Shown here piece after piece: positions 5,411-13,809 of a stretch of 13,809 nucleotides of DNA. The stretch's first letter is position 1. Each line of letters begins with the position of its first letter. Position numbers and translations under genes: made by a program. A model generated the notes under the pieces. The model was not told the DNA's origin. It did not search any database and saw only the letters and a program-made list of their open reading frames with translations. The DNA comes from Cryomorphaceae bacterium (GTDB taxonomy: Bacteria > Bacteroidota > Bacteroidia > Flavobacteriales > Schleiferiaceae), in contig DNWN01000019.1 in the NCBI GenBank assembly GCA_003507115.1, forward strand, positions 285 to 14,093. The letters run 5' to 3'.

Positions 5411-6042
5411 AGCCATCCCCTCGCCCCATCTCCCGCATGAATCGATGGCTATTCGACCTAGGGTGGATTGGGGCCGAATGGTTCCTGCGGAGGACTTTTT
5501 GGGGGCATTTTATTTCCCGGCATCCAACAAATCATCCAAGCTGGTGGACGGTCATTCAAGCCCGCTGGCCGATGGTGTTAAAATCAAAACCTATTGCACT
5601 CCCAAAAGGTCCCATCCGGCTGCATGTGTGGCACACCCGAGGGGTATTGGATGGCTTTCTCCTAGGGCAATGGTGTGAGCAATGGGGCCGTTCCTGGCGC
5701 ATGTGGATGCACCCGAAGGTGTATGTCGAATTAGGGGCGCCCTCCTGGGCCTACTCGGCGCCCACAAATGGCAGGGCGTGGGTTGATTTGTACCGGTGGG
5801 CGGAAGCTGAGCAAGCGATACTGGTTATTTTTCATGCTTCTCCTCCACGACCTCGGCGTCGAACCAGCACGGGATCATTTGTCGACTTGGTGGGACGTTT
5901 GGTTGTCACGGAGGAGGACGGCACGGCCATTCCTCCCATGAGGGAATTCCAAAGCATTCGTTGGGCGGCACGGCGCCCAACGGGAAAAAAAATGTATCTA
6001 GACTGGGAATGGGAGGACGAAAGTCCGAATCACCAAGTATAA
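5407..6042 (+). CDS. Hypothetical tryptophan-rich protein, third gene of the aspartate kinase operon
   Basis: I do not recognise this family. The 211-residue protein starts at ATG 5407, overlapping the aspartate kinase stop as ATGA, so translational coupling is likely. An internal ATG at 5437 (residue 11) is an alternative start. It is strikingly rich in tryptophan: 18 of 211 residues (about 8.5%), including SWW, SWRMWM and the DWEWED tail. It is also basic (RR and PRPRRR clusters). No signal peptide, confident membrane helix or known catalytic motif is visible. A VWHTRGVLDGFLLGQW segment (about 79-94) loosely recalls an acyltransferase H-x4-D box, but the spacing is one residue too long. Conserved-looking aromatic patches and clean operon coupling favour a real gene. 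The 3' end overlaps the convergent barrel gene by 13 bp. Confidence 0.8.
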   Translation: MKPSPRPISRMNRWLFDLGWIGAEWFLRRTFWGHFISRHPTNHPSWWTVIQARWPMVLKSKPIALPKGPIRLHVWHTRGVLDGFLLGQWCEQWGRSWRMWMHPKVYVELGAPSWAYSAPTNGRAWVDLYRWAEAEQAILVIFHASPPRPRRRTSTGSFVDLVGRLVVTEEDGTAIPPMREFQSIRWAARRPTGKKMYLDWEWEDESPNHQV

Positions 6043-6689
6043 AATGAATAAATCATCCCGAGGCGCAGCCCTGTGAGGCGATCCCACGTCGCATCGTCCG
6101 CCGTATGCCAGCCCTCTAATTCGTCGCCTGGCACGAGGGTATTGAAGTATTCGACTGTACTGGAGATGTGCTCCGTATGACGGATTTTGAAGCCCAGCCC
6201 TCCTCCGAGAGTGGCGCTCAAATTTGTTCCTGGATCAAACGTGATTTGGGTGGGGTACGCGATGTCCTCCATATACGTGGATTGGCTAAAGCAACCGCCG
6301 AGAGTTCCAAAGAGATACGGAGTCATCCCGTTGCGTTTCCAATACTTGCCATACGGAAGCAGGTGATGCGTGATGCGCACGGCCGAAGTGATATACGTCG
6401 TGTTTAGATTGACACCTGTAAACGAACCCTTGTGATTGGCATTCGAAGCATAAAGACTGCCGTAATCCAATTCGGCGCCAAAGCCCCATCTCGATCCCGT
6501 GTAAAAACTGAATTCCGCACCCAGAGAGGGCCGAGTCTCTTGCAACATGGCATTGATATCTCCCGTAGCGAAGTCTCCGATATGGTTGGAACTGCCAAGG
6601 TGCACATTCAGGTTCAGGGACTGTAAGGAACGTTGTCCCATGACTGGGAAGGCCAAGGTCAAAAGGAGGGCAGGGAGGAAGTATCTCAT
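6030..6689 (-). CDS. Outer-membrane beta-barrel protein, DUF6089-like
   Basis: A 219-residue exported protein with a clear signal peptide, MRYFLPALLLTLAFPVMG, and likely cleavage before Q19. The mature part alternates polar and aromatic residues in short strands (LNLNVHLGSSNHIGDF, ETRPSLGAEFSFYTGSRWGFGAELDYGSL, TTYITSAVRITHHLLPYG, TPYLFGTLGGCF, LSATLGGGLGFKIRH, SSTVEYFNTL). It ends in an aromatic barrel-like strand, LRLGMIYSFYTW, as expected for an eight-to-ten-stranded outer-membrane barrel. The N-terminal pattern of glycines, an IGDF turn and RPSLG recalls the DUF6089 family of Bacteroidota, although I assign this from memory and cannot search. Function is unknown; such proteins are structural or porin-like. 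It stands alone, convergent with the preceding operon (13-bp tail overlap), and is probably transcribed from its own promoter in the gap to its right. Confidence 0.88.
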   Translation of the reverse strand: MRYFLPALLLTLAFPVMGQRSLQSLNLNVHLGSSNHIGDFATGDINAMLQETRPSLGAEFSFYTGSRWGFGAELDYGSLYASNANHKGSFTGVNLNTTYITSAVRITHHLLPYGKYWKRNGMTPYLFGTLGGCFSQSTYMEDIAYPTQITFDPGTNLSATLGGGLGFKIRHTEHISSTVEYFNTLVPGDELEGWHTADDATWDRLTGLRLGMIYSFYTW

Positions 6690-6905: not shown

Positions 6906-6913
6906 TCAGGGAT
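6894..6913 (-). terminator. Weak intrinsic terminator candidate after the D-2-hydroxyacid dehydrogenase
   Basis: On the minus strand ATCC-CTGA-GGAT can form a 4-bp stem around the dehydrogenase stop codon and is followed by A and a run of seven or more T. Stem strength is poor, but the position at the end of the long leftward operon is right. Confidence 0.3.
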
Positions 6914-7841
6914 GGCCTTTTAAAATCTTTGTGATCAAAATCTCCCCCATTTTCGGGAAGGACTGCTCGCTCCAGCCCGCTATGTGCGGGGTCACCAGGA
7001 CTCGCGGGTCGCTCAAAAATGCATTCCACCAAGGGGGAAGGCCTTCCAATCCTTCCAAAGAGCGTTTTTCTAGATCCAGCACATCCAGAGCCGCCCCGCG
7101 AAGGTGACCTTGCTGAACCGCGTCCCACACGGCCGCGGTGCGAATCACGCCGCCTCGGCTCGTATTCACCAGGAAAGGGGCTTTGGCACATTGCCGCAGG
7201 AACGGCGCGTCGACCATTCCTTCTGTTTCGGCGGTCAGGGGCAGATGAAGACTAAGGACATCACTTTCGCTAAGAACCCGATCGAGCGTCGCTTCCTTCA
7301 CATAGGCCGGAGCATACCCGGTTTTGTACTTATCGTAGGCGAGAATGCGCACGCCAAAACCCTGCAAACGCTGGGCAAAGGCGGAGCCCATGTGTCCAAA
7401 GCCGATGATGCCGATCGTCGACCCTTCCAGTTCCCAGCCCGTGTTGGACGCGCGGTTCCACGCACCCCCGATGACCTCTCGGTGTGCCCAGCCAATTTTA
7501 TGGGTCAAGGAGAGCAACATCCCCAAGGCATGCTCTCCGACGGCGCTGCGATTGCCCTCTGGAGCCGAATACAGGGCGACTCCGCGGCGTTGGGCCGCCG
7601 CTTGGTCAATATTCTCGACGCCCGAACCCAATCGGCCAATCCACTGGAGGGCGGGGGCTTGGGCGAGAAGGGGCTCGGTGATGCGGATGCGGCTTCGAAG
7701 TAGGATTCCTTCGGCCGTGGCGAGGTAGGGTCCGAGTTCCGCTTCGGGGACGTGATAGGCTCGCATCAGGGTGTAGCCTGCTGCCTCGAGTCCCGCCTCC
7801 AGCCCTGCATCGGTCGAATCCAAGGCAAGGACCGGCTTCAT
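6906..7841 (-). CDS. D-2-hydroxyacid dehydrogenase (phosphoglycerate-dehydrogenase-like)
   Basis: A 311-residue NAD(H)-dependent oxidoreductase of the D-isomer-specific 2-hydroxyacid dehydrogenase family, soluble. The Rossmann domain carries GIIGFGHMG (144-152), with D170 about 18 residues later as the likely ribose-binding acidic residue favouring NAD. The catalytic set is complete: Arg229 in NTSRGGVI, Glu258 in LDVLDLEK and His286 in TPHIAGW. The split catalytic domain is formed by the N-terminal ~95 and C-terminal ~25 residues. At this length there is no C-terminal ACT/serine regulatory domain, so it is the short form. 3-Phosphoglycerate is a reasonable substrate guess (serine synthesis), but glyoxylate, hydroxypyruvate or other 2-keto acids are not excluded. 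Its ATG overlaps the mgtE stop by 4 bp and it is the last gene of the leftward operon. Confidence 0.93.
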   Translation of the reverse strand: MKPVLALDSTDAGLEAGLEAAGYTLMRAYHVPEAELGPYLATAEGILLRSRIRITEPLLAQAPALQWIGRLGSGVENIDQAAAQRRGVALYSAPEGNRSAVGEHALGMLLSLTHKIGWAHREVIGGAWNRASNTGWELEGSTIGIIGFGHMGSAFAQRLQGFGVRILAYDKYKTGYAPAYVKEATLDRVLSESDVLSLHLPLTAETEGMVDAPFLRQCAKAPFLVNTSRGGVIRTAAVWDAVQQGHLRGAALDVLDLEKRSLEGLEGLPPWWNAFLSDPRVLVTPHIAGWSEQSFPKMGEILITKILKGHP

Positions 7842-9184
7842 AGCAAGGCGTTTGCGATGGCAAAATAAATGCTCAATCCGAGCACGTCATTGGTCGTCGT
7901 AATAAAGGGTCCAGTCGCCAAAGCCGGATCGACTCCGTAGTGGTCCAGGACCCAGGGGATGGCGGTGCCGAACAAGGAAGCAAAAAGAATGACGGCGAGG
8001 AGAGAGCCTCCCACGGTGGTCGCAAAGAGCAATCCATGCCCCATGCCCCAGCTGTAAAGCAAAATAACCAAGGCGCAAATCAAGCCGTTGAAAAGACCCA
8101 CCCCGAGCTCGCGACGTAGGCGGGTCCAAAGATTTTTCTGCAAGGTGCTATTGGCAATGGCTTGGACGACAATGGCCGAAGATTGAACCCCTACATTGCC
8201 TCCCATGGCCGCAATCAAGGGCATAAAGAAGGCGATTTGGGGAATGAGAATGAGCTCGCTTTCATTCCGCGCAATGACGGTGGAGGTGAGGACCCCACCC
8301 AGGAGCCCGACAAGCAGCCAAGGCAGGCGTGCCCGCGTCATGTCAAATAAGCCGTCATCATTCGTGACTTCATCCGATAGACCGGACATCAACTGGTAAT
8401 TGCTGTCGGCTTCTTCTTGAATGACATCTACCACGTCGTCCAGGGTGATTCGGCCGAGGAGTCGCCCCAATTCATCCACGACGGGAATGACAAAGAGGTC
8501 GTACTTCTTCATGATACGCGCCACTTCTTGATCTTCGGTGGTGGACGTCACGGAGCGGACTTTGCGTTCAAACACCTCTGAAATCGGAGTACGGGTGCTC
8601 GTTGTCAGTAATTTTTTCAATGAGAGTGACCCGAGGAGGACGTCATTGTCATCCACGACGTAGACGGCATGCACCACTTCCACGTCTTCGGCTTGCCGGC
8701 GCATCTCTCGAACACAATGTAGAACGGTCCAATTCTCATTGACTTTCACGAGTTCTGTTGCCATCAAGGCCCCAGCTGTTCCCTCGGCATGGGTGAGTAG
8801 ATCCGCCAAATCCTTGGCCAAATCCAAGTCCTCCAAGTTGGAGAGAACCTCGCGTTTTTTGTCCTCGGGGAGTTCCGAAATCAAATCGGCGGCATCGTCC
8901 GTGTCCATGTTGTCCAGGACGACCTGCGCAATTTCTTTTCCTGTATAGTTTTCTAAAATTTCACCTCTGCGCTCTTCGTCAAAATACACGATGACATCGG
9001 AGAAGCGCTCGGGGCCGAGCGTTTGCATGAGGGCGTAGGCCTGTTCGGCATCGAGACTTTGGGCGATTTCAGCAACATCCGCAGCGTGAAGGTCCAGCAA
9101 AAGGCTTTCCAGCCCGGAGAAGTTTTTATCCTCCAGGTGTTGGCGCAGGGCCTTGATGTATTCCGGGGTGATCTGGAACGCCAT
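7838..9184 (-). CDS. mgtE: Magnesium transporter MgtE
   Basis: A 448-residue Mg2+-selective channel of the inner membrane, the usual MgtE length. Order of parts: N-terminal helical superhelix domain (about 1-135), a CBS pair (about 138-260, including TELVKVNENWTVLHCVREMRR and VARIMKKYDLFVIPVVDELGRLLGRITLDD) that senses cytosolic Mg2+, an acidic plug-like linker, then a membrane domain with about five hydrophobic helices from residue 287. The signature PLIAAMGGNVGVQSS (322-336) and the last-helix DPALATGPF...TTNDVLG block (419-435), with the conserved pore aspartate in NDV, are present. The start at ATG 9184 gives the standard N-terminus, and no later in-frame ATG precedes residue 53. This places the first 59 bp inside the rsmA tail. 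No room exists for an M-box riboswitch, so expression should follow the operon and gating should occur at protein level. Confidence 0.97.
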   Translation of the reverse strand: MAFQITPEYIKALRQHLEDKNFSGLESLLLDLHAADVAEIAQSLDAEQAYALMQTLGPERFSDVIVYFDEERRGEILENYTGKEIAQVVLDNMDTDDAADLISELPEDKKREVLSNLEDLDLAKDLADLLTHAEGTAGALMATELVKVNENWTVLHCVREMRRQAEDVEVVHAVYVVDDNDVLLGSLSLKKLLTTSTRTPISEVFERKVRSVTSTTEDQEVARIMKKYDLFVIPVVDELGRLLGRITLDDVVDVIQEEADSNYQLMSGLSDEVTNDDGLFDMTRARLPWLLVGLLGGVLTSTVIARNESELILIPQIAFFMPLIAAMGGNVGVQSSAIVVQAIANSTLQKNLWTRLRRELGVGLFNGLICALVILLYSWGMGHGLLFATTVGGSLLAVILFASLFGTAIPWVLDHYGVDPALATGPFITTTNDVLGLSIYFAIANALL

Positions 9185-9947
9185 GGGTCATACTTTGTGC
9201 CAGGGCGATGAATTCGTGGACATCTAGTTGTTCAGCACGGCGCTGGGCTAGTGTCTCCATCGGTCCTGTCTCCGCAAAATTAAGGGATTTCAGCGCGTTA
9301 CGCAGGGTTTTTCTCCGTTGGTTGAAGGCCGTCTTGACCACGAGGGCTAAATGTTTGGGGTTGACATCCGGCATTTCGGCTCTTCGCCGGCAATGGATGA
9401 CCCCGCTTTTTACCCTAGGTGGCGGGTCAAAGGCGCCTTCGTCCAAAGTAAAGAGGTAGTCGACCTCATAATAGGCTTGGGTGAGGACGGATGTTATGCC
9501 GTACACCTTGCTTCCTGGTCCCGCGGCTATGCGCTGGGCTACTTCTTTTTGGAACATGCCGACCATTTCGGGAATCTGCGCGCGCCGATCGATCATCCAA
9601 AAGACGATTTGCGTCGAGATGTTGTACGGGTAGTTGCCTACCAAGGCGAAGGGTTCACTGGCAAGAGCCTCGGGAACGCTCCACTTGAGGAGGTCCGCAT
9701 GGTACAATCGCGCACTGATCTCGGGAAACTTGCTTTGAAGCACGGGAATGCTTTCGCGGTCCAGCTCGATGGCATGGAGTTCGAGGTTCCTGGGCAAGAG
9801 GTACTGGGTCAGCACCCCAGTACCGGGTCCCACTTCCAATACGCGGTGATACCCGTCTAAGGAAAGGCGATCCGCCATGCGTTCGGCGGCGCTCAAGTCC
9901 CGCAGAAAATGTTGGCCGAGGGCCTTTTTAGCACGAATTTCAGCCAT
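9126..9947 (-). CDS. rsmA: 16S rRNA (adenine1518-N6/adenine1519-N6)-dimethyltransferase RsmA (KsgA)
   Basis: Uses S-adenosylmethionine to dimethylate the two adjacent adenines in the helix-45 loop of 16S rRNA during small-subunit maturation. The 273-residue protein has every expected landmark: KKALGQHFL (7-15), SAM motif I VLEVGPGTGVLT (36-47), acidic ribose-binding ELD (61-63), the methyl-transfer motif NYPYNIS (105-111), FDPPPRVKSGVI (173-184) and FNQRRKTLRNAL (208-219). The family normally ends near FIALAQ (about 250). The remaining ~20 residues (a Pro/Gly-rich tail ending PAPTPGG) are encoded where the frame overlaps mgtE and may have no function. The ATG lies 8 bp inside the 3' end of the fusion gene upstream, so the genes are co-transcribed. 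Confidence 0.97.
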   Translation of the reverse strand: MAEIRAKKALGQHFLRDLSAAERMADRLSLDGYHRVLEVGPGTGVLTQYLLPRNLELHAIELDRESIPVLQSKFPEISARLYHADLLKWSVPEALASEPFALVGNYPYNISTQIVFWMIDRRAQIPEMVGMFQKEVAQRIAAGPGSKVYGITSVLTQAYYEVDYLFTLDEGAFDPPPRVKSGVIHCRRRAEMPDVNPKHLALVVKTAFNQRRKTLRNALKSLNFAETGPMETLAQRRAEQLDVHEFIALAQSMTHGVPDHPGIHQGPAPTPGG

Positions 9948-12900
9948 GGAGTCCGGCGCGTTTTAGGAGGGCTTCGGGTCGGGGCACACGGCCTCGGAAG
10001 CGTTGGTACAAGACCATGGGATCCTCTGAGCCTCCTGCAGAGAGCAAGGCTTTGAAGTCCGCGGCCACTTGGGCTTCGTTTTGGGCCTCTTCCTGGAAGC
10101 GCTCAAAGGCATCGGCATCTAGAACTTCCGCCCATTTGTAGGAATAGTATCCCGCCGAATAGCCCCCTGCAAAGATGTGGGAGAAAGCGGGGGACATCCA
10201 GTTCCCTTCGGCAGCGGGCCACACCTCAACAGGCGCCAAGGCTTCGCGCTCCAGCGCAGCGGCATCCTCCACGGCTTCCGAGCGATCGTGCCAGGCCATG
10301 TCCAGCAGGCCAAAGCCCAGCTGGCGCACGGTGGCGAGGCCTTCGAGGAAGGTTTGGCTCGCTTGGATGCGGTGCAAGAGGTCTTCGGGAAGGGCCTCCC
10401 CGTTTTGGTGATGCCGCGCCCATTGGGCCAGTTCCGAAGGTTGGTAGCACCAGTTTTCCATGAACTGCGAAGGCAATTCGACAAAATCCCAGCGCACGCT
10501 CGTCCCAGTCAAGCTCGCATACCGGCCAGCGCCCAGCAAGCCGTGCAAGGCGTGCCCAAACTCATGGAACAACGTCAACACTTCGTTAAACGTCAGCAAC
10601 GCGGGCTGATCCCCCACGGGCGGGCTGAAATTGCCCACCATGGAGATGACGGGATAGTCGCGCCATCCCTGCTTCACCCGGGCGGCGCGGTAGCTGGTCA
10701 TCCAGGCGCCGTTTCGCTTGCCTTTTCTCGGGTGCCAGTCCGCATGGAGATGGGCGACCCACCGGCCCTCCGCATCTTTCACATCAAAGACGCGCGCATC
10801 GCGGTGGTAGGTGGGGGCGTGGGAGGGCGTAAAGGTCAAGCCGTAGAGGCGCTCCGCCACGGCAAAGGCCCAGGCTTCCACCCGTTGCAGCGGGAAGTAG
10901 GGCTTGGTCGTTTCGTCGTCAAATTCGAGGGTGGCTTTTTTGAACTTTTCACTCACGAAGGCCGCGTCCCAACGCAGCACATCCGTCAGTCCCATTTCTG
11001 CGGCCGCAAAGTCGCACAGGGCTTGAACGTCACGCTGGGCGGCGGGCAGCGCCTTGGTGGCCAGGTCGGTCAAAAAATTCGTGACAGTCGCGGGCGTTCC
11101 GGCCATGCGCTCCTCCAGAACAAAGGCGGCATGGCTGGGGTAGCCCAATAGCTGCGCGCGTTCTCGGCGCAGCTCCGCAATCTCCGCCGTCAACGCCCTG
11201 TTATCGTTGGCGTCACCGCGGGCGCCCCGCTGGGCAAAGGCGCGCCAGAGGGTTTCGCGCAGGCTGCGTGAGGGCGAATGCGTCATGACCCCCAGGTAGA
11301 GCGGGGCGTCTAAGGTGAATACAGCATGATCCAGGTCCCGAGCCTTGCCCGCTTCGCGCGCCATGTGGGACACGGCTTCCGGCAGGCCGGCTAGATCGGC
11401 CTCGCTGGCGGGGAGGTGCCAGGCCTCTGTGTCACGCAGAACATGCTCAGAAAATTCCAGGCTCGCTTGTCCCAGGCGCTCATCGATGGCGCGCAATCGG
11501 GTTTGGGCCTCTGCGTCGAGCAAGGCGCCGTTCCGCACAAAGCCTTTGTAGGCCTTTTCCAAGAGCATTTGCGAAGCTGCATCCAACTCGGGGGCCGCTT
11601 CATACACGGCTTTAATGCGAGCAAACAGCTGCGGATTCATGCGAATGTCGTTGCTCAAGGCCGCCAATTTGGGCGAATACGCTTTGGTGAGCGCCTGGAT
11701 TTCAGAGGTGGTGCAGGCCGAATTGTAATTAAACAAGCGCTCGGTGACCCCATCGAGGGAATCGCTCAATTCTTCGAGGGCGACCAAGGTGTTTTCAAAG
11801 GTGGGAGCCTCCTGCAGGCTGGCAAGTTTTTGGAGCCTGTCCTGGGCCTCGGCCAATCCCTGATCCAGGGCGGCTTCCCAATCGGAGGGTGTCCACGTGG
11901 GGAAATCCAAGGCATGGACGTAACTCGATAAGTAGCTAAATCGACCTTGCAAGCGACCGTCTTGGGTTTCGGTGGCGCGGTCTAGCATGCCTTCCGCATC
12001 GCCGGAGGTCAGGGCAGGAAGGACCCCTTGGATAAACTGTTCGCCAAAGCCGGTGGTGGCATCGCCTGGAACGGCACTTGGCAGGTTGTCTACGGCGAGG
12101 ACGCCCACACTGCCGGGAGTGCCGAGGGGCACTTCGGCGCCGCTGGCGGCATGCCAGGCGTAGAAGGGGTCCGACAAGGTGCTGGGTCGAAGGGTAGAGG
12201 GGATAGGGCCGGCAATATCGCAGCTGATATCCCCGATGAATTTCAACGAAAAGGCGGGGTCTTGAGCCTCTGCCGCGCTGAAGAAGCTCGGACTGTTTTC
12301 GGCCCAATAGTGGCAGGGAATGTACACATCGGCCGCACAGGCATAGGGGAAAAAGGTGGAGCGGTAGGCCTCCGGATGGGCGTAGAAATCTGCTTTGTCG
12401 TAGGGCTGACCATCGTTTCGGGCCACATAATGCTTCGTGTCCAGGACGGTAAATACCGGACGATTCCCAGCAGGGTGGGTGACGAAGTCTTCCGGGCTCA
12501 CTTCCTGAAACCCGCCGGCGAGGAGCATTTCTTTGGCCCCCTGACCCACACGACCCTTGCCGGTCAGGACGACTTTCCACGATCCTTTAGGATGAGCGTT
12601 TAATTGCGCTTTGAGATCGGCCACCCAGCCTAATTCCACCGCTGCGGGCAGGGGAGGCTGGCCTTCCTGAAGGGCGAAGCCTCGGATCGCTTCATAGGCG
12701 CCCACCAAACCGGCATAGAGGCCAAATCCAATGACGCGCTGCCCGTTCTGCTTGAGGAGTTCCCAGTCAATGAGCCGAACGTTTTTCTGCAAGCAAGCTT
12801 TGAGCAACGCACGATTGTAGGGCTGCTCCTTGTAGGTGTGTGAAAAGAAAAATTGGGTGGCACCTTCGTGCAGTTCCGCGATGGGAACCTCCTTCACGCC

Positions 12901-13101
12901 CAGAAGCACATCGCAGGTGCTTAGATCGCTGCTTAGCGCGCAGCCAACCGCGTTGTAATCGGCGTCGGGATAGCAGCGGATGGGGCTCGGTTCAACCACC
13001 ACTTGATGCCCTTGAGCAATCAAGTGCGCGCATTGAGCGGGGTTGAGCACTGCACGTCGGTCTGGGGGCGTTTTACCCTCTCGAATCAAGCCAAAAATCA
13101 T
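9940..13101 (-). CDS. Fusion: saccharopine/alanine-dehydrogenase-like oxidoreductase + M3 zinc oligopeptidase
   Basis: A single open frame encodes 1053 residues from ATG at 13099-13101, with homolog-like N-terminus MIFGLIREGKTPPDRRAV. The frame extends 24 codons further to 13173, but that part overlaps the lipoprotein gene. Residues about 1-396 form an AlaDH/PNT-type oxidoreductase: the N-terminal block with DVLLGVKEVP and FFFSHTYKEQPYN, a dinucleotide-binding loop LTGKGRVGQG (about 179-188) and an end block DNLPSAVPGDATTGFGEQF...FSYLSSYV, matching the ~400-residue Bacteroidota proteins called saccharopine dehydrogenase-like. Residues about 400-1053 form a full M3 oligopeptidase (Dcp/oligopeptidase A type): zinc motif HEFGHALHG (about 846-854), third ligand in DFVELPSQFMENW, and the substrate loop GGYSAGYYSYKW. 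No signal peptide, so probably cytosolic. An in-frame TTG at 11910 is a conceivable separate peptidase start. The fusion may be genuine or an assembly artefact. It sits 28 bp after the lipoprotein gene and overlaps rsmA by 8 bp. Confidence 0.92.
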   Translation of the reverse strand: MIFGLIREGKTPPDRRAVLNPAQCAHLIAQGHQVVVEPSPIRCYPDADYNAVGCALSSDLSTCDVLLGVKEVPIAELHEGATQFFFSHTYKEQPYNRALLKACLQKNVRLIDWELLKQNGQRVIGFGLYAGLVGAYEAIRGFALQEGQPPLPAAVELGWVADLKAQLNAHPKGSWKVVLTGKGRVGQGAKEMLLAGGFQEVSPEDFVTHPAGNRPVFTVLDTKHYVARNDGQPYDKADFYAHPEAYRSTFFPYACAADVYIPCHYWAENSPSFFSAAEAQDPAFSLKFIGDISCDIAGPIPSTLRPSTLSDPFYAWHAASGAEVPLGTPGSVGVLAVDNLPSAVPGDATTGFGEQFIQGVLPALTSGDAEGMLDRATETQDGRLQGRFSYLSSYVHALDFPTWTPSDWEAALDQGLAEAQDRLQKLASLQEAPTFENTLVALEELSDSLDGVTERLFNYNSACTTSEIQALTKAYSPKLAALSNDIRMNPQLFARIKAVYEAAPELDAASQMLLEKAYKGFVRNGALLDAEAQTRLRAIDERLGQASLEFSEHVLRDTEAWHLPASEADLAGLPEAVSHMAREAGKARDLDHAVFTLDAPLYLGVMTHSPSRSLRETLWRAFAQRGARGDANDNRALTAEIAELRRERAQLLGYPSHAAFVLEERMAGTPATVTNFLTDLATKALPAAQRDVQALCDFAAAEMGLTDVLRWDAAFVSEKFKKATLEFDDETTKPYFPLQRVEAWAFAVAERLYGLTFTPSHAPTYHRDARVFDVKDAEGRWVAHLHADWHPRKGKRNGAWMTSYRAARVKQGWRDYPVISMVGNFSPPVGDQPALLTFNEVLTLFHEFGHALHGLLGAGRYASLTGTSVRWDFVELPSQFMENWCYQPSELAQWARHHQNGEALPEDLLHRIQASQTFLEGLATVRQLGFGLLDMAWHDRSEAVEDAAALEREALAPVEVWPAAEGNWMSPAFSHIFAGGYSAGYYSYKWAEVLDADAFERFQEEAQNEAQVAADFKALLSAGGSEDPMVLYQRFRGRVPRPEALLKRAGLHG

Positions 13102-13106
13102 AGCCC

Positions 13107-13133
13107 TAAAGGTAGGGCCTGCAACGCGCTCAA
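13107..13133 (-). promoter_or_regulatory. Candidate promoter for the dehydrogenase-peptidase fusion and downstream genes
   Basis: Minus strand: TTG (13133-13131), a 16-bp spacer, then TACCTTTA (13114-13107), one mismatch from the Bacteroidota -7 box TAnnTTTG. The box ends five bases before the ATG at 13101, so transcripts would be leaderless or nearly so. It overlaps the last bases of the lipoprotein gene, giving the operon a possible internal promoter. Confidence 0.4.
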
Positions 13134-13462
13134 TTGTGCCAAATAGTCCCCTGAAAACTGGAATTTGACGCAAAGTCTAGCCCTTGGATTTGGGTGAAAC
13201 CCGCAAACCCTCCCAAAAATCCCAAGGTGTCGCACTGTGCATCCAACACATAGGTGGGCATATCGGCCCCGCAGGTTCCCGGATCAAAAAGGTAGACCGG
13301 CTGACCCTGGAATTGGTATTCGTCTACGTGGGCGCTCGAGGTGCAGCACCACGTTTGAAATGCATCCAACGCGGCGGGGAGGCAATCGGGTCCGCCGTGC
13401 ACACGGGAGCCGCAGTTCCAGGTGAGAAGTGATAGAATTAACAGACTCAGGAACGCTCTCAT
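13130..13462 (-). CDS. Small cysteine-rich lipoprotein-like protein, DUF6970-like
   Basis: A 110-residue protein starting at ATG 13462, which overlaps the stop of the NlpC/P60 gene as ATGA. The frame opens further upstream to 13528, but a hydrophobic export signal begins exactly at MRAFLSLLILSLLTWNC, supporting the shorter start. Cys17 is a plausible lipidation site, though LTWNC is a loose lipobox (Trp and Asn where small residues are usual). The mature part has further cysteines at 27, 39, 40, 64 and 77, and a core EYQFQGQPVYLFDPGTCGADMP...CDTLGFLGGFAG that resembles, from memory, the DUF6970 family of small Bacteroidota envelope proteins. Function is unknown. Five post-signal cysteines suggest disulphides in the periplasm. 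The link with a cell-wall peptidase gene is suggestive only. Confidence 0.82.
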   Translation of the reverse strand: MRAFLSLLILSLLTWNCGSRVHGGPDCLPAALDAFQTWCCTSSAHVDEYQFQGQPVYLFDPGTCGADMPTYVLDAQCDTLGFLGGFAGFTQIQGLDFASNSSFQGTIWHN

Positions 13463-13809
13463 GGGCGGTAATAGAATAACCGTCGGGCTCCCAGGTAGCG
13501 CCGTTCGTAGTAGGCTTGGCCTACCCAATTTTCAATCAAGACCCCGCTGTGGGTGGCGCTGTGCAGCATGTAGATGCCCGTGCTGTCTTTGCCCACGCAG
13601 AGTCCGACATGGCCTATTTCGGAGGCGTTTCGGCCCGAAAACAGCATGAAATCCCCCACGCGAATACTGTCTCTTGCGATTTTTTTGCCTTCCTGGGCAT
13701 AGCCGCGGCTGCTGGCCGGAAGCGTTTGGTCCATTTGGCCATAGATCCAATAAAGCAGGCCGGAGCAATCAAAGCCACCAGGCTGCTTGCCGCCCCCCTG
13801 GTAGCGCTC
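13459..13809 (-). CDS. NlpC/P60 family peptidoglycan endopeptidase (5' end cut off by window edge)
   Basis: The C-terminal 116 residues of a cysteine peptidase that cleaves peptide stems of peptidoglycan. The frame is open from the right edge to the stop at 13459-13461. The catalytic cysteine is in GGFDCSGLLYW (Cys codon 13765-13767), the catalytic histidine in SEIGHVGLCVG (His codon 13609-13611), and the third polar residue is probably the first His of HSATHSGV. RVGDFMLFSG and the C-terminal RRYLGARRLFY are typical of the fold. Only the catalytic domain is visible. Any signal peptide, SH3-like domains and the start lie outside, so localisation is inferred from family. An in-frame ATG at 13734 is inside the domain, after the catalytic Cys, and is not a start. 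The stop overlaps the lipoprotein start by 4 bp, making this the earliest visible gene of the leftward operon. Confidence 0.93.
   Translation of the reverse strand, partial: ERYQGGGKQPGGFDCSGLLYWIYGQMDQTLPASSRGYAQEGKKIARDSIRVGDFMLFSGRNASEIGHVGLCVGKDSTGIYMLHSATHSGVLIENWVGQAYYERRYLGARRLFYYRP

Follow-up and report, generated by a model that had tools for sequence, protein, structure and literature searches.

We present a gene in which two enzymes share one open reading frame. It lies in a 13,809-nucleotide stretch (the window) of contig DNWN01000019.1 in assembly GCA_003507115.1, from a Cryomorphaceae bacterium, on the minus strand between an ATG at 13101 and a stop at 9940-9942. The first enzyme is by similarity a lysine-ketoglutarate reductase (LKR) and the second an M3 oligopeptidase; Pfam finds AlaDh_PNT_N at residues 5-131 and Peptidase_M3 at residues 605-1050. 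The single frame, its length, its coordinates and its motifs are as a first-pass annotation of the window had described them. In Table 1, we report the features of the gene and of the block downstream of it. An alternative in-frame TTG start at 13173 gives a longer version of the gene, which overlaps a small upstream open reading frame (13130-13528, minus strand) with a match to DUF6970.

Table 1. Features of the fused gene and its downstream block, in window coordinates.
Feature	Position	Strand	Remarks
Fused gene, LKR (saccharopine dehydrogenase, L-lysine-forming type) + M3 oligopeptidase	9940..13101	-	1053 codons + stop
LKR domain	11914..13101	-	residues 1-396; best PDB relative, the LOR/LKR domain of human AASS
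LKR K70	12892..12894	-	human AASS Lys93 (catalytic), by alignment
LKR H88	12838..12840	-	human AASS His111 (catalytic), by alignment
Junction ALDFPTWT	11890..11913	-	residues 397-404; non-helical in the model, between two helices; gap-free in 18/18 rows
M3 peptidase domain	9943..11889	-	residues 405-1053; best PDB relatives K-26 DCP, E. coli Dcp, oligopeptidase A
Zinc motif HEFGH	10552..10566	-	residues 846-850; H846, E847, H850 invariant in 18/18
Third zinc ligand E875 (DFVE)	10477..10479	-	invariant in 18/18
rsmA (ksgA)	9126..9947	-	shares 8 bases with the 3' end of the fused gene; also downstream of M3 in some unfused relatives
mgtE	7838..9184	-	next gene of the M3-rsmA-mgtE block
2-hydroxyacid dehydrogenase	6906..7841	-	further gene of the block

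A junction shared by 18 full-length genes

In the AlphaFold2 model of the fused protein (64 aligned sequences), the mean predicted local distance difference test score (pLDDT) is 93.8 and the predicted template modelling score (pTM) is 0.86. About eight residues of high pLDDT connect the final helix of LKR (386-396) to the opening helix of M3 (405-427), and the first-pass description of a near-linkerless fusion stands. A search for homologues with both domains and the same junction, which that annotation had proposed, finds 18 full-length genes in 18 genomes, all with an open frame, no internal stop and a junction of constant length, down to about 50% identity. Three further pieces at contig ends (G008, G009 and G018) also cross the junction. 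Because the same in-frame junction recurs in 18 full-length genes of separate genomes, we confirm that the fusion is genuine and not an assembly artefact. The source genome is a fragmented metagenome-assembled genome (MAG) of 1.40 Mb in 172 contigs, judged 80% complete, with the window within contig 166, and such fragmentation favours a misassembly or sequencing indel that joined two genes. The recurrence of the junction and the purifying selection on both halves reduce the chance of such an artefact to almost nil. No indel is visible at the CCCC run near 11898, and the other 17 fused genes keep the frame. Amongst ten pairs compared, several of which have dS > 1 and give rough values, the ratio of nonsynonymous to synonymous substitution rates (dN/dS) is 0.08-0.19 for the LKR half (9 pairs computable), 0.05-0.15 for the M3 half (8 pairs computable) and 0.12-0.47 for the junction block (8 pairs, only 50 codons).

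At the junction, length is maintained while sequence drifts. In the alignment of the 18 genes, residues 318-503 form the longest gap-free run, which spans the junction, and residues 391-420 are the least conserved block of 30 residues (mean share of the commonest residue 0.45). The C-termini of separate LKRs map to fused residues 396-401 in 102 of 104 proteins, a subset selected by length (396-407 aa) from the 116 listed proteins P0125-P0240; the other two map to 461 and 465, which look like misalignments. On the M3 side, placing the N-termini of 23 separate proteins by fragment alignment gives scattered positions, and we do not use that placement. The M3 side of the junction is taken from another alignment with separate relatives, in which roughly the first dozen M3 residues are replaced by LKR.

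Identity of the two halves

The evidence supports a lysine-ketoglutarate reductase, by similarity, as the oxidoreductase half. A profile built from the LKR halves of the 18 fused genes matches the LKR domain of human AASS over 4-395 with an E-value of 7e-59, and yeast LYS1 partially with an E-value of 5e-26. A Foldseek match to 8e8u, with a TM score of 0.82 by target, agrees with this. The available text of a preprint on human AASS (PMC13174811) gives Lys93 and His111 as catalytic, Arg146, Arg39 and Gln116 as binding the product, and Lys114 as a residue that may contact the substrate. Lys93, His111, Arg146, Arg39, Lys114 and Gln116 correspond to K70, H88, R122, R16, K91 and Q93, all identical in the 18 fused rows; the mapping is by profile alignment, at chain position + 18 (an offset that fits Lys93, His111, Lys114 and Arg146), and was counted in part by hand. 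K70, H88, R16 and R122 are also present in 112/112 separate LKR rows, which are those of 390-420 aa among the 116 listed. Alanine dehydrogenase is rejected as an identity, with 23 bits against an NCBIfam alaDH equivalog cut-off of 391.85.

The M3 half has the M3 fold, the HExxH motif and the downstream Glu, and is closest to K-26 dipeptidyl carboxypeptidase (DCP), E. coli Dcp and plant oligopeptidase A. The structural match 5l43 has a TM score of 0.93 by target and 40% identity. The M3 half scores below the NCBIfam equivalog cut-offs for both OpdA (454.7 of 927 bits) and Dcp (427.8 of 944 bits), and we therefore assign it to the OpdA/Dcp group and name it as neither. H846, E847, H850, D872, E875, H975, Y981, Y985, Y986 and Y988 are invariant in the 18 fused rows and in 110 of 110 other M3 rows (10 from the family and 100 listed proteins of 660-760 aa). 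The first-pass claim of intact active sites in both halves thus agrees with the residues found. A different protein, P0099 (1628 aa), carries GlnE-type adenylyltransferase domains together with a full M3 peptidase, a second M3 fusion to an enzyme of nitrogen metabolism.

Much of the clade may have a full route from lysine to aminoadipate, judging from sequence matches to the partner enzymes. PF16653, the C-terminal domain of LYS9-like saccharopine dehydrogenase (SDH), has a match in 81/88 genomes of the family and 20/22 of the genus, mostly not checked copy by copy. The copy in the source genome is on another contig, and its best PDB match is the SDH domain of human AASS. A relative of L-piperidine-6-carboxylate dehydrogenase appears at E <= 1e-120 in 72/88 family genomes, 15/22 genus genomes and 3/3 genomes of genus g5. 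In G005, whose fusion is 91% identical, an antiquitin-type dehydrogenase scores above the NCBIfam equivalog cut-off for this enzyme. G012 has the fusion and a relative of aminoadipate semialdehyde (AASA) dehydrogenase with no SDH match by PF16653. In the source genome, an aldehyde dehydrogenase at G000:C114:10335-11803 is split into two pieces that overlap, the second of which contains a single internal TGA; this may be a frameshift. The first-pass annotation had offered a redox sensor or an amino-acid-handling enzyme: similarity to LKR and the pathway partners in much of the clade favour the amino-acid enzyme, and nothing we see points to a redox sensor.

Distribution, gene order and origin

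The fused query has a match in 20 of the 22 genomes of the genus: 16 are full fusions, three are the contig-end pieces described above, and one (G014) consists of two pieces that do not cross the junction. G007 and G010 have no match to the fused query. In the family, 85/88 genomes match, and beyond the genus the listed fusions are confined to genus g5, in two of its three genomes; the third (G029) has a contig-end piece. Outside the two genera, we find no fusion among the matches listed for 393 sampled genomes of the order, where a fusion would rank top, nor among 198 sampled genomes of the phylum. By protein search, 19 of 120 listed hits (154 in total) bear both Pfam domains. Amongst the best 80 of 287 loci found with the LKR profile, 18 have M3 next in frame and two break off at a contig end or close to it; in the other 60, M3 is absent from the retrieved flanking sequence, whose length is at most 6 kb and in some loci well under 2 kb. 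The fused loci include Cryomorphaceae bacterium BACL7, Flavobacteriales UBA3431, UBA972, Owenweeksia sp. TMED14 and two Schleiferiaceae MAGs. A Baltic Sea study lists BACL7 at 1.74 Mb and finds that most of its MAGs show signs of streamlining (PMC4699468). Of the 18 fused genomes, 17 have exactly one match to the query, and the search reached no stand-alone LKR or M3 in them; G028, also fused, has a second match, which is unlisted. Database labels of the fused proteins, such as hypothetical protein and peptidyl-dipeptidase Dcp, hide the LKR half.

Because each half forms one clade in its tree, a single origin appears to be the simplest reading. In the LKR tree (55 rows), the fused rows have bootstrap and Shimodaira-Hasegawa-like approximate likelihood ratio (SH-aLRT) support of 100/99, and the stem branch of their clade is long (0.45). 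Of the separate LKRs, that of G087 is closest, with 96/89 under midpoint rooting. In the M3 tree (37 rows, by a quick method), the fused rows group with SH-aLRT 99; G027 and G028 are flagged there as possible long branches.

In all 15 fused genomes examined (G004, G012 and G021 were left out), rsmA and mgtE follow the fused gene; the hydroxyacid dehydrogenase follows in 14, the contig of G013 ending earlier. Unfused M3 genes of the family have rsmA downstream, on the same strand and within 5 kb, in 6/11 genomes with usable loci (G052, G051, G053, G087, G023 and, more loosely, G044); the other five (G081, G062, G079, G060 and G059) have no rsmA within 5 kb downstream. None is seen either at four more M3 loci of the family or at seven from a different family in the order, all with flanks no longer than about 1.5 kb. 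Since rsmA lies downstream of M3 in several unfused relatives, including G087, the fusion sits at a site that M3 already held. The separate LKR genes of the relatives examined are at a locus other than that of M3. In G052, G051, G023 and G087, they are near genes that by eye we take to be rpoD, pnp or rpsO. At loci L059, L060, L073 and L075, from several genera, separate LKR genes recur near one same gene block, by eye that of rpoD, pnp and rpsO. Elsewhere in the window, 6030-6689 (minus strand) has a weak match to PorG of the type IX secretion system, with 44.8 bits against a cut-off of 130.

The first-pass annotation had considered that two formerly overlapping genes lost a stop. We find this unlikely because LKR lies elsewhere than M3 in the relatives examined. 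Two separate genes, which had been named as evidence against the fusion, are present in other genera of the family and in none of the 18 fused genomes. An intermediate with unfused LKR and M3 side by side does not appear among the unfused loci examined, including the 60 LKR loci with their sometimes short flanks. In the ancestor of the two genera, which belong to one family of Bacteroidota, the LKR gene would have come to lie directly upstream of M3 in the M3-rsmA-mgtE block. Comparison with separate relatives suggests that in-frame joining then replaced a few C-terminal residues of LKR and about a dozen N-terminal residues of M3.

Known systems, possible workings and meaning

The domain combination is new, and both component families are known. 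Searches of the open-access literature aimed at LKR joined to M3 gave no paper on such a fusion, as judged by titles and the openings of abstracts; subscription papers were mostly out of reach. The closest known arrangement is AASS, the LKR/SDH of humans, animals and plants, which also has an N-terminal LKR, related over nearly the whole half, and a second enzyme at the C-terminus. The fused protein carries M3 where AASS carries SDH, which here is a separate gene. The short junction also differs from that of AASS, for which the available preprint text describes a long helix with flexible linkers (PMC13174811). Separate LKRs of Bacteroidota (saccharopine dehydrogenase NAD+, L-lysine-forming) are of the same family as the fused half, 45-51% identical among the listed P0125-P0240 and with the same catalytic residues, and differ in that they stand alone, have about 400 aa and are at another locus in the genomes examined; in the source records some are called alanine dehydrogenase or NAD(P)-dependent oxidoreductase. 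Oligopeptidase A, Dcp and K-26 DCP share the fold and zinc site of the M3 half, and differ from it in its replaced N-terminus and in its scores below the OpdA and Dcp cut-offs.

We propose, with a probability of about 0.6, that the gene encodes a lineage-specific bifunctional enzyme in which both halves are active and LKR is an oligomeric core. The product would be one polypeptide, as the frame implies. Since both active sites are invariant and separate copies are lacking, the LKR half would presumably convert lysine, 2-oxoglutarate and NAD(P)H into saccharopine, and the M3 half would cut cytosolic oligopeptides. In the available text of two reports on the human enzyme, the LKR domain is tetrameric and, in full-length AASS, SDH dimers extend from the LKR tetramer core (PMC9490328, PMC13174811). 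By analogy, the LKR half probably forms an oligomeric core that carries the peptidases outward at its C-terminus, as animal AASS carries SDH. The gain, if any, would be joint production at a fixed ratio and not substrate hand-over. M3 enzymes of the Dcp/OpdA type release dipeptides or shorter oligopeptides and are not known to release free lysine, and because of this a direct hand-over of lysine is unlikely.

Several observations weigh against the bifunctional enzyme. By title, all 18 fused loci named are from MAGs. AASA dehydrogenase has no hit at E <= 1e-120 in the source genome or in six other genomes of the genus, where fragments would escape. There is no PF16653 match in G012 (96% complete, fused) nor in G009 (63% complete). 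A shorter human LOR construct that lacks the C-terminal segment is reported as inactive, and the authors suggest that this segment reaches a neighbouring monomer (PMC9490328); a near-linkerless peptidase could disturb it. The LKR half also has changes specific to the fused clade. N137, an N in 37/37 separate rows (107/112 in a larger set), is E in all 18 fused rows; I54C, A/S290G and E343A/Q are changes at sites conserved in separate LKRs; and there is drift at R128, whose human counterpart Gln152 is on an allosteric path reported in the available preprint text (PMC13174811).

These LKR changes, together with the missing SDH match in a nearly complete fused genome (G012), favour the reading in which the enzymatic role of one half has shifted or been lost, for instance with LKR as a sensor or scaffold or acting on another amino acid. 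The catalytic and substrate residues listed above do not vary, dN/dS in the LKR half is low in 9 of the 10 pairs (one not computable), and most genomes of the genus retain the pathway partners; the long stem branch alone would also produce fixed differences. The substitutions may come from that branch alone or from a functional shift, and we consider a changed role improbable. Functional coupling, in which the two sites affect one another or lysine from peptides is consumed on the spot, such that being fused accelerates or regulates the catabolism of peptide-derived lysine, is somewhat less improbable and still unlikely. None of the 18 full-length genes is split, the junction is gap-free in all of them despite sequence drift, the model is ordered there, and separate copies are not seen in 17 of 18 genomes. 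The same picture would result if the fusion were simply difficult to reverse, such peptidases are not known to release free lysine, and gene order shows no older link, with M3 in the fetched flank of 0/60 unfused LKR loci. A neutral fusion, a frozen accident in small genomes, fits the data about as well as peptide-lysine coupling. There is also a very small chance that internal initiation at the junction or proteolysis yields a separate M3. A start-type codon (ATG, GTG or TTG) is present at residue 398 in 9/18 genes, as ATG in six and as TTG in the window and G005; the other nine have none there, and other start-type codons between residues 372 and 425 are each common to at most 8/18. Internal initiation is therefore no shared design. 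More speculatively, and with odds that we put below those of a changed role, an oligomer of LKR, with lysine, 2-oxoglutarate and NADPH as its ligands, might gate or array several M3 peptidases through the rigid junction of fixed length, as a metabolic sensor-peptidase machine. If so, peptide breakdown would be tuned to lysine and to carbon-nitrogen status.

The fusion adds a second type of partner at the C-terminus of LKR, the position of SDH in the animal and plant enzymes. It is apparently the sole copy of each enzyme in 17 of the 18 small genomes with a complete fused gene. Other genera of the family keep both enzymes apart, and together with the fused genomes they offer a natural test of functional versus frozen-accident fusions in small genomes.

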